Positions 10,452 to 11,319 of a stretch of 64,000 nt of DNA are shown piece after piece. A program made the position numbers and the translations under genes. The first letter of the stretch is position 1. Every line of letters starts with the position of its first letter. The notes beneath the pieces were generated by a model. The model was given only the letters and a program-made list of their open reading frames with translations, did not search any database and was not told where the DNA came from. The DNA comes from Kiloniella sp. EL199 (lineage in GTDB: Bacteria; Pseudomonadota; Alphaproteobacteria; Kiloniellales; Kiloniellaceae). Location: assembly GCF_900313065.1 (NCBI RefSeq), contig NZ_OMPU01000013.1, positions 372,001-436,000 on the forward strand. Direction: 5' to 3'.

Positions 10452-10601
10452 TTATCCACAGAGTTTTCCACAACATGTGGTGTTGATCATGCATAGGTAT
10501 ACACAATTTACAGTGATTTGGAAAGAAATTAAATCTTGGGTAGTTGATCCGTTGTGAATAAAAATCTGTGGATGTCAACGCGTCGTGCTTTAATTTCCAC
10601 A
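10452..10601. other. cluster of DnaA-box-like sequences
   Basis: Two exact matches to the consensus TTATNCACA are present: TTATCCACA at 10452-10460, and the reverse complement of TTATTCACA at 10553-10561. Weaker relatives are TTTTCCACA (10464-10472), the reverse complement of ACATCCACA (10567-10575) and ATTTCCACA (10593-10601). All fall within 150 bases of an AT-rich gap. This could be an origin, a DnaA-titration or reactivation site, or a DnaA-regulated promoter. The flanking genes are not those usually found at alphaproteobacterial oriC. Confidence 0.45.
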
Positions 10602-10615
10602 AATTGGTTAAATCC

Positions 10616-10693
10616 TCCGACTTCAGTCGGATAAATATACAATTTTGCGCCAAAGGCACTCATTACACTGAACCCTCTGACTTTAGTCGGAGG
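10616..10693. repeat. two related short hairpins
   Basis: TCCGAC-TTCA-GTCGGA (10616-10631) and CCTCTGAC-TTTA-GTCGGAGG (10674-10693) share the core CYGACTTYAGTCGGA and are 58 bases apart. They lie between the DnaA-box cluster and the hsp20 promoter. Neither is followed by a T run, so they are not typical terminators. Their function is unknown. Confidence 0.6.
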
Positions 10694-10732
10694 AGGCTCA
10701 GTATATAAAATGTCAGGATTTTGTCCGCTGGC

Positions 10733-10761
10733 CTTGACCTGTGCAGCTGTAATCCCCAAAT
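10733..10761 (+). promoter_or_regulatory. sigma-32 (RpoH)-type promoter of hsp20
   Basis: CTTGAC (10733-10738), a 15-base spacer and CCCCAAAT (10754-10761) match the heat-shock pattern CTTGAA / CCCCATNT closely. Transcription would start near 10768 and leave a leader of about 100 bases before the hsp20 start codon. The promoter fits a small heat-shock protein gene. Confidence 0.75.
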
Positions 10762-10767
10762 ATGTAT

Positions 10768-10869
10768 CACTGTGGCGCTGCTTGGTGCAGGCCACTTGGT
10801 TAAACTTACTGGTTGCCATTACGGGGCCGCGTTATGAATGAGCCTTGCTCTTTCGAGGAGGTATAGTTG
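10768..10869 (+). ncRNA. ROSE-like RNA thermometer in the hsp20 leader
   Basis: The leader folds into successive hairpins. The first is GTGGC (10772-10776) with GCCAC (10791-10795), extended by CTGC/GCAG. A second, weaker one lies near 10811-10827. The 3' hairpin pairs CTTGCTC (10844-10850) with GAGGAGG (10855-10861) around TTTC, burying the ribosome-binding site AGGAGG. TTGCT opposite AGGAG with a central G-G mismatch is the hallmark of ROSE elements, which melt on heating. ROSE elements are known upstream of alphaproteobacterial small heat-shock genes. Confidence 0.75.
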
Positions 10870-11319
10870 TCGAGATTATCTTTGTTTAATAGCCCGCTTA
10901 TGCTTGGATTTGAACAATTCGAGCAAGCTGTTGATATGATTTCTAAAACAGCGTCAGATGGTTATCCCCCCTACAACGTTGAAAAGGTGAGCGAGAATAA
11001 GATACGTATTACGCTCGCTGTTGCAGGCTTTTCCCAAGAGGACATGCAGGTTCAAATCGAAAATAACCAGCTTGTAATTAAAGGGAAGGCTAAATCAGAT
11101 GATGATAAAGAATACCTTCACCGTGGTATTGCCGCGCGACAATTCAGGCGCGCGTTTGTTTTGGCTGAAGGGATTGAAGTTTTAGATGCAAAGCTGGAAA
11201 ACGGCCTTCTACATGTTGATTTGGAACAGCCATTGCAAAATATAGCTATTCGTAGCATTGAAATTCAAACAGGTAATGAAAAACCTTCGGCGACTGTGAT
11301 TGAAGACAAGAAGAGCTGA
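10867..11319 (+). CDS. Hsp20 family small heat-shock protein
   Basis: A 150-residue alpha-crystallin-domain chaperone that holds unfolded proteins. The N-terminal part includes LFNSPLMLGFEQFEQAVDMI. The alpha-crystallin domain spans roughly residues 35-130 and includes ITLAVAGFSQEDMQVQIENN and the conserved LENGLLHVDL. The start is TTG at 10867, with AGGAGG five bases upstream. The context is an IbpA-like protein with a DUF1150 gene behind it, a common alphaproteobacterial pair. Control is predicted by a sigma-32 promoter and a ROSE-like thermometer. Confidence 0.93.
   Translation: MSRLSLFNSPLMLGFEQFEQAVDMISKTASDGYPPYNVEKVSENKIRITLAVAGFSQEDMQVQIENNQLVIKGKAKSDDDKEYLHRGIAARQFRRAFVLAEGIEVLDAKLENGLLHVDLEQPLQNIAIRSIEIQTGNEKPSATVIEDKKS

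Follow-up and report, generated by a model that had tools for sequence, protein, structure and literature searches.

A ROSE-like leader with repeated bulged-G hairpins upstream of the hsp20 gene of Kiloniella sp. EL199

Described ROSE-type leaders and the Kiloniella hsp20 locus

The ROSE-like RNA thermometers of the Pseudomonas and Escherichia coli ibpA genes place a U(U/C)GCU motif opposite the Shine-Dalgarno (SD) sequence with a bulged or mismatched G, and are accompanied by one or more stable upstream hairpins with a bulged G, a heat-shock promoter and an IbpA-type gene. The leader of the hsp20 gene of Kiloniella sp. EL199 is alike in all of these respects, but has three hairpins where Pseudomonas has two, and is followed by a TTG start codon. 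In Pseudomonas, the sensor hairpin alone suffices for the heat response whilst hairpin I stays folded, and the available text of PMC3669281 describes the role of hairpin I as not fully understood. The Rfam ROSE family (RF00435) shares with the Kiloniella leader the succession of a hairpin I with a bulged G, a further hairpin and a sensor with UUG-CUC; however, RF00435 pairs the AUG region within the lower stem of its last hairpin, whereas the short Kiloniella sensor hairpin keeps the start codon unpaired, and the bulged G of hairpin II in the Kiloniella leader has no counterpart there in the Rfam model. The Kiloniella SD stem can also set a G opposite a G, as in the ROSE-G thermometers of ABC transporter genes, though these, as far as the available part of PMC12857270 describes them, use CUGCU and precede genes that do not encode small heat-shock proteins (sHsps), in contrast to the UUGCU and sHsp gene found here. 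No published record of a ROSE-like thermometer in Kiloniella was found in a literature search.

The window, a 64-kb stretch of the 4.18-Mb genome of this organism (19 contigs), was compared across a set of 23 family genomes made up of its own and those of 22 family relatives. With a probability that we put at roughly 0.87, the locus consists of an RpoH-type promoter and a three-hairpin leader whose SD-pairing last hairpin melts on heating. The hsp20 gene (positions 10867 to 11319, forward strand) was found in all 23 genomes and encodes an IbpA-like sHsp of 150 amino acids; the named relatives with a gene at 97% identity are Kiloniella species. The TTG start at 10867 that had been proposed from the sequence is correct, since the translation begins MSRLSLFNSP and aligns at its N-terminus with the 22 remaining orthologues, all of which read (M/V/L)(S/T)R-x-SLFNSP. 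The SD sequence AGGAGG (10856 to 10861, forward strand) lies five bases 5' of the start codon. Start codons among the orthologues of the 23 genomes were TTG in five, GTG in two and ATG in 16, the close Kiloniella group having a weak start codon under the same type of leader.

Upstream of the gene, a -35 box CTTGAC (10733 to 10738, forward strand), a 15-base spacer and a -10 box CCCCAAAT (10754 to 10761, forward strand) together span 10733-10761. We take this arrangement to be an RpoH (sigma-32) promoter on the strength of the sigma-32 consensus. The pattern CTTGAY-N12-18-CCCCAWWT had its single match in the window at this site, against 0.01 expected by chance; genome-wide it matched three times, and a reversed-pattern control not at all. 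Similar sites were present in 23/23 family genomes, 128-147 bases 5' of the hsp20 start codon, with CTTGAY as the -35 box in 22 leaders and GTTGAT in one, and with -10 variants including CCCAAAT, CCCCCATTT, ACCAAAT and CCCTATCT. Because the pattern is rare and similar sites occur in all 23 leaders, the promoter of the sequence-only reading is retained exactly as it had been placed, and the heat-shock sigma-factor promoter that belongs to the ROSE-like class is thereby represented as a sequence pattern. Transcription would start near 10768 and give a leader of about 100 bases, the length depending on that putative start.

Ending 30 bp 5' of the hsp20 promoter is a dispersed repeat (10592-10702, about 111 bp) that carries a pair of TCCGACTTCAGTCGGA-like palindromes with a spacing of 60 bp. 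The genome holds four full doublets of this palindrome repeat, and no exact copy of either palindrome was found within 1.5 kb upstream of hsp20 in any of the other 22 genomes. The repeat appears to be a small palindromic element that was inserted recently.

Structure and conservation of the leader

The 3' end of the leader reads CCUUGCUC-UUUC-GAGGAGG, containing the SD sequence, and forms the putative sensor, hairpin III (10842 to 10862, forward strand; -6.7 kcal/mol), in which CCUU-(G10847)-CUC lies opposite GAG-GAGG. The bulged-G form is available in 23/23 leaders. Its ROSE motif UUGCU (10845 to 10849, forward strand) is invariant in all 23, as is the whole of CCUUGCU in the anti-SD arm of the alignment, and a CCUUGCUC-type arm opposite GAGGAGG can be formed in every leader, with GAGAAGG in L035 and GCUU in L004. 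The sequence-only reading had paired TTGCT with AGGAG through a G-G mismatch; the hairpin stands, whilst the mismatch is only one of two registers in which it can be drawn, the other having a bulged G and seven pairs (CCUU-(G)-CUC/GAG-GAGG) and being the usual way in which ROSE elements are drawn. The U(U/C)GCU opposite the SD sequence and the bulged or mismatched G of the SD stem (G10847) that typify the ROSE-like class are thus both present, whereas the CUGCU of ROSE-G is replaced by UUGCU in all 23 leaders. A fourU thermometer, with four U opposite the SD sequence, was considered and rejected, the arm being CCUUGCUC.

The rarity of the short motif was likewise rejected as an argument, as TTGCT-N3-12-AGGAG has 43 matches in the genome and the reversed control 45. 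Of 30 matches inspected among the 43, three stand 2-13 bases before the start of a frame of more than 100 codons, the frames being those of the two sHsp genes and a third that is doubtful. The case for the sensor rests on position and conservation, not on the short motif itself.

Two further hairpins precede the sensor. Hairpin I (10772 to 10795, forward strand), GUGGC-(G10777)-CUG with a bulged G, is the most stable of the three at -14.5 kcal/mol, and the stable hairpin that had been marked at this place is real, with changes on both sides in 6/8 pairs over the 23 leaders. Hairpin II (10810 to 10829, forward strand; -4.0 kcal/mol), GGUU-(G10815)-CC with a bulged G, was absent from the earlier reading; its bulged-G form occurs in 19/23 leaders, across which its pair types vary. 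Leaders of the ROSE-like class have two to four hairpins within 60 to more than 100 bases upstream of an sHsp gene, and the present leader falls in that range when its length is counted from the putative transcription start.

Covariation was observed in hairpins I and II. When RNAalifold was run unaided on the 23 leaders, hairpin I alone was predicted, its bulged G included. Across these leaders, 94.6% of the 184 cells of hairpin I were paired and 33 cells had changed on both sides, and the covariation score was 0.651 as against 0.342 in shuffles, none of 500 shuffles being as high in any of these three measures; with the partner slid, only 31-41% of cells were paired. Two weaker measures, the 6/8 pairs with double changes and the count of pair types, were equalled in 46/500 and 33/500 shuffles, respectively. 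For the three-helix structure in the nine Kiloniella leaders, 97.4% of cells were paired against a shuffled mean of 95.0 (1/500 as high) and 40-58% in slid controls, and four pairs had double changes against 1.5 in shuffles (15/500 as high). The alignment of the 23 leaders places the 3' arm of hairpin III wrongly in several rows, and therefore the pairs of hairpins II and III over the 23 leaders were counted by structural position, without a shuffle control, the counting tool having been applied to the nine Kiloniella leaders only. Under the strict definition, the pair tables are made up without L009, L010 and L025 for hairpin I, and without L032, L034, L035 and L036 for hairpin II. The pairs of hairpin III displayed no covariation over the 23 leaders, and none can appear because this hairpin hardly varies. 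The covariation among relatives on which the sequence-only reading was to stand or fall is accordingly borne out in the upstream hairpins but not in the sensor itself.

A covariance model built from the nine Kiloniella leaders and run against the 23 whole genomes gave strong matches (E 1.7e-17 or better) only at its own nine training leaders, the next match having an E value of 0.14. On other genera its matches were weak or absent, the best orthologue scoring 21.6 bits.

The sequence-only reading had looked to the Rfam ROSE models for support; the search returned no match in the window, at either gathering or permissive thresholds, and none of the 23 family genomes reaches the RF00435 cut-off of 45 bits. 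Weak ROSE scores were obtained at 18 places in 15/23 family genomes, of which 17 adjoin other sHsp matches and none lies at the orthologous hsp20 leader. Since the Rfam search fails, the element is ROSE-like by anatomy and not an Rfam ROSE member. The ROSE-like layout itself was upheld by the CCUUGCU present in 23/23 leaders, the covariation in hairpins I and II and a hairpin I that is the same as in the Rfam ROSE consensus. The hsp20 leader is thus very probably a ROSE-like RNA thermometer by anatomy and conservation, though not RF00435 by score, and ROSE-like is the most fitting label given the combination of U(U/C)GCU, bulged G, three hairpins, IbpA-type gene and RpoH-type promoter. The Kiloniella element would be an expected ROSE-like thermometer, ordinary in kind and overlooked by Rfam.

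Five other weak Rfam matches near the leader were rejected as far below their cut-offs, the best being SMAD5-AS1_2 (E 0.094) and psRNA14 (22.7 bits), both of which lie on the palindromic repeat. The best Rfam ROSE score in Kiloniella, up to 40.4 bits and under the cut-off, belongs to a third kind of sHsp paralogue.

Proposed control and predicted folding

In the proposed mechanism, the RpoH-type promoter would start the hsp20 mRNA on heat shock, with a leader of about 100 bases folding into three tandem bulged-G hairpins. At low temperature, hairpin III would pair UUGCU and its neighbours with the SD sequence and shut out the ribosome; heat would melt hairpin III and allow translation to begin, whilst the upstream hairpins would stay folded. 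Dependence on sigma-32, heat melting of the last hairpin only and translational control are what the known ROSE class would lead one to expect, and the dual transcriptional and translational heat control of the sequence-only reading would follow the same lines.

Folding predictions varied with the length of RNA supplied. In the minimum-energy fold from 10766 to the start codon, hairpin III was kept at 20-37°C and lost at 42°C, and at low temperature this UTR-only fold also paired the hairpin I region with the hairpin II region. In span-limited folds of the window leader, hairpin III was absent at every temperature tried. When 12 coding bases were added, the SD sequence of the window leader had a predicted opening of 0.51-0.55 from 20 to 55°C; with 24 coding bases, stability was not above that of shuffles (z -0.67) and the SD sequence of the window copy was not closed. 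Minimum-energy folds at 25°C contained hairpin I in 16/20 leaders, hairpin II in 12/19 and hairpin III in 12/23, and span-limited folds at the same temperature contained hairpin III in 9/23. The expected thermal opening thus appears between 37 and 42°C when the UTR is folded alone, but with coding bases the SD sequence is about half open throughout. Minimum-energy folding was rejected as proof, as its result depends on context, and these models neither prove nor exclude heat sensing.

When the window leader was folded together with coding bases, its minimum-energy structure contained a small hairpin in which GAGC-CUU-GCUC of the anti-SD arm folds on itself, frees the SD sequence and would compete with hairpin III in a two-state switch. 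We consider such a switch improbable: GAGCCUUGCUY is retained in eight of the nine Kiloniella leaders, but the small hairpin is broken in L005 (GACCCUUGCUC) and its four-pair form is not kept in the family's other 14 leaders. Control by a leader peptide has still less in its favour and was rejected as nearly refuted, in that the ten-codon frame concerned (MNEPCSFEEV*, 10834-10866), which in the window runs through hairpin III and ends directly before the TTG start, recurs in the same form in just 3/23 leaders (L001, L004 and L006), and its absence from the other relatives makes this reading extremely improbable. A ROSE-like leader whose last hairpin melts on heating is preferred to either of these readings.

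The repeated bulged-G hairpin

The element itself is ordinary, and the part worth following is a hairpin repeated within it. Hairpins I, II and III were observed to share a layout consisting of an outer stem of at least four pairs, one bulged G on the 5' arm (10777, 10815 and 10847, respectively), an inner stem of 2-4 pairs, usually with C-G first, and a loop of 3-8. Across the 23 leaders, hairpins of -3.5 kcal/mol or better had 61 G, 6 A, 1 C and 2 U as 5'-arm bulges, and 2 G, 4 A, 7 C and 0 U as 3'-arm bulges, whilst shuffled leaders (40 sets) held 2.6 ± 1.6 bulged-G hairpins (largest 6) against the 61 real ones. Three such hairpins were present in 15 leaders and two in the other eight, and the base after the bulged G was C in 54/61. 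The excess persisted at four thresholds from -2 to -6.5, and was also found in ten spread-out leaders (27 G versus 3 A, 1 C and 0 U). When the window was tiled on both strands (113-base tiles, step 50), just one of 2,556 tiles held three bulged-G hairpins, the tile at 10751, which is the hsp20 leader. Tiling of 41 sHsp loci from the family gave 10,880 tiles, of which 26 held three; 24 of these lay in the leaders of 21 loci and two elsewhere.

The second sHsp gene of the same genome (L002) has its own three-hairpin bulged-G leader, and 12 paralogue leaders held 34 bulged-G hairpins against 0.6 in shuffles, this set being 12 of 18 fetched leaders after exclusion of third-paralogue L019-L023 and L038. 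At a laxer threshold, the six excluded leaders held 0, 0, 0, 1, 2 and 1 bulged-G hairpins, respectively; the third paralogue kind in Kiloniella fits the layout poorly, with 0-2 per leader (n=5). As a separate observation, L002 (G000:C2:181970) and L011-L023 are second or third sHsp paralogues with their own ROSE-like leaders, in which UUGCU precedes AGGAG, GGGAG or GGAG.

Beyond the family, 62 further sHsp leaders, mostly gammaproteobacterial and in many cases closely related to one another, held 83 bulged-G hairpins against 6.0 in shuffles (largest 12). Of these leaders, 61 had a bulged-G hairpin of any kind and 58 had at least one that precedes the sensor, whilst the strict sensor form was present in 21 and three hairpins in only three; 31 of 36 distinct upstream copies outside the family read (U/C)-G-C-C around the bulged G. 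Two upstream copies are present in Kiloniella, and usually one in the gammaproteobacterial leaders scanned. In E. coli K-12 (L157), with an outer stem of at least three pairs allowed, ibpA has three and ibpB two bulged-G hairpins, each with at least one upstream of the sensor. Within the Alphaproteobacteria, Rfam ROSE matched 18/289 genomes, and 15 of 17 such loci scanned (L158-L174) had a bulged-G hairpin outside the UUGCU/UCGCU sensor; L169 was without one, L170 offered no readable stretch and L165 ended before the sensor.

The consensus of RF00435 draws hairpin I with a bulged G, and the feature is therefore implicit in Rfam. No remark on a bulged G outside the SD hairpin was found in the literature text available, including the accessible parts of PMC9450479, PMC12857270, PMC11342760 and PMC3669281, the last of which does not use the word "bulged" there; the founding ROSE papers or figures may show it.

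Amongst the 12 weak Hsp20 matches in the family genomes, taken together as a divergent set, 11 leaders were without the array (ten with no bulged-G hairpin and one with a single hairpin) and UYGCU was lacking from the last 45 bases of all 11. The twelfth leader, of an atypical IbpA-like gene beside another sHsp gene, held three bulged-G hairpins and UUGCU. This locus (L176; G013:C660:9262-9546) encodes a protein in which the R93 region, read by eye, is altered. No bulged-G hairpin by the definition used was found in the leader of E. coli oppF, reported as a ROSE-G thermometer in the available text of PMC12857270, or from -230 to +300 of E. coli rpoH.

The upstream hairpins might be passive, protecting the 5' end of the mRNA or preventing misfolding of the sensor, with the bulged G a relic of hairpin duplication. 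We rate this reading at somewhat less than even odds. The sensor hairpin alone is enough for the Pseudomonas heat response, and roles in stability and folding have been suggested for Pseudomonas hairpin I, at least in the available text of PMC3669281; however, a passive relic should not hold its bulge as G while the stem pairs change, and the counts were 61 G against nine A, C or U. The repetition of the bulged G suggests recognition and not passive support.

Amongst possible recognising factors, we infer that the sHsp itself is the best candidate, because IbpA uses R93 to bind its own mRNA leader and the equivalent residue is present in the window protein, as are those of R97 and Y34. According to the available text of PMC10474464, IbpA acts by way of the 5' UTR to repress its own mRNA in E. 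coli, C. neteri and V. harveyi, self-repression by E. coli IbpA requires R93, R97, K98 and an aromatic residue at position 34, and structured RNAs, thermometers amongst them, seem to be what IbpA binds. The Kiloniella locus compares with that system in having an IbpA-type protein with the equivalents of Y34, R93 and R97 and a structured leader, but differs in that the K98 equivalent is an alanine.

This likeness admits a reading in which the leader mainly senses aggregation, temperature being a second input or none: the sHsp would bind the bulged-G hairpins and repress translation until clients draw it off. Besides the residues retained in the window protein, this reading gains from the bulged-G hairpins of both E. 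coli targets, ibpA and ibpB, the absence of the array from the 11 divergent Hsp20 leaders (ten of them without any such hairpin) and the lack of a bulged-G hairpin in the non-sHsp oppF thermometer. The contrast between IbpA-type and divergent Hsp20 leaders is nonetheless confounded by ancestry, the loss of the K98 equivalent counts against the reading, and rpoH, said in the available part of PMC10474464 to be repressed by IbpA, is without a bulged-G hairpin, which speaks against this hairpin as the sole thing that IbpA recognises. Aggregation sensing as the main function seems doubtful, and somewhat less probable than passive upstream hairpins.

To be set beside a leader that opens on heating is the tentative proposal, to which we give about the same limited credence as to aggregation sensing, that ROSE leaders consist of one repeated module, a hairpin whose single 5'-arm bulged G mostly precedes a C-G pair, of which the thermometer would be the last, SD-bearing copy and the upstream copies would be kept in both the alpha- and the gammaproteobacterial class because they are recognised, most likely by the sHsp. 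If true, this would make the leader a combined sensor of temperature and aggregation. The bulged-G layout common to the upstream and sensor hairpins makes the role of the upstream hairpins testable by a single base, and the same single-base change would test what IbpA recognises in repressing its own mRNA.

A different form of sensor may exist in Anderseniella and in another alphaproteobacterium: by eye, the AAGCTGCTT-N4-AAGGGCTT in which their orthologous leaders (L054, L057 and L058) end can be drawn as a sensor hairpin whose SD and anti-SD differ.
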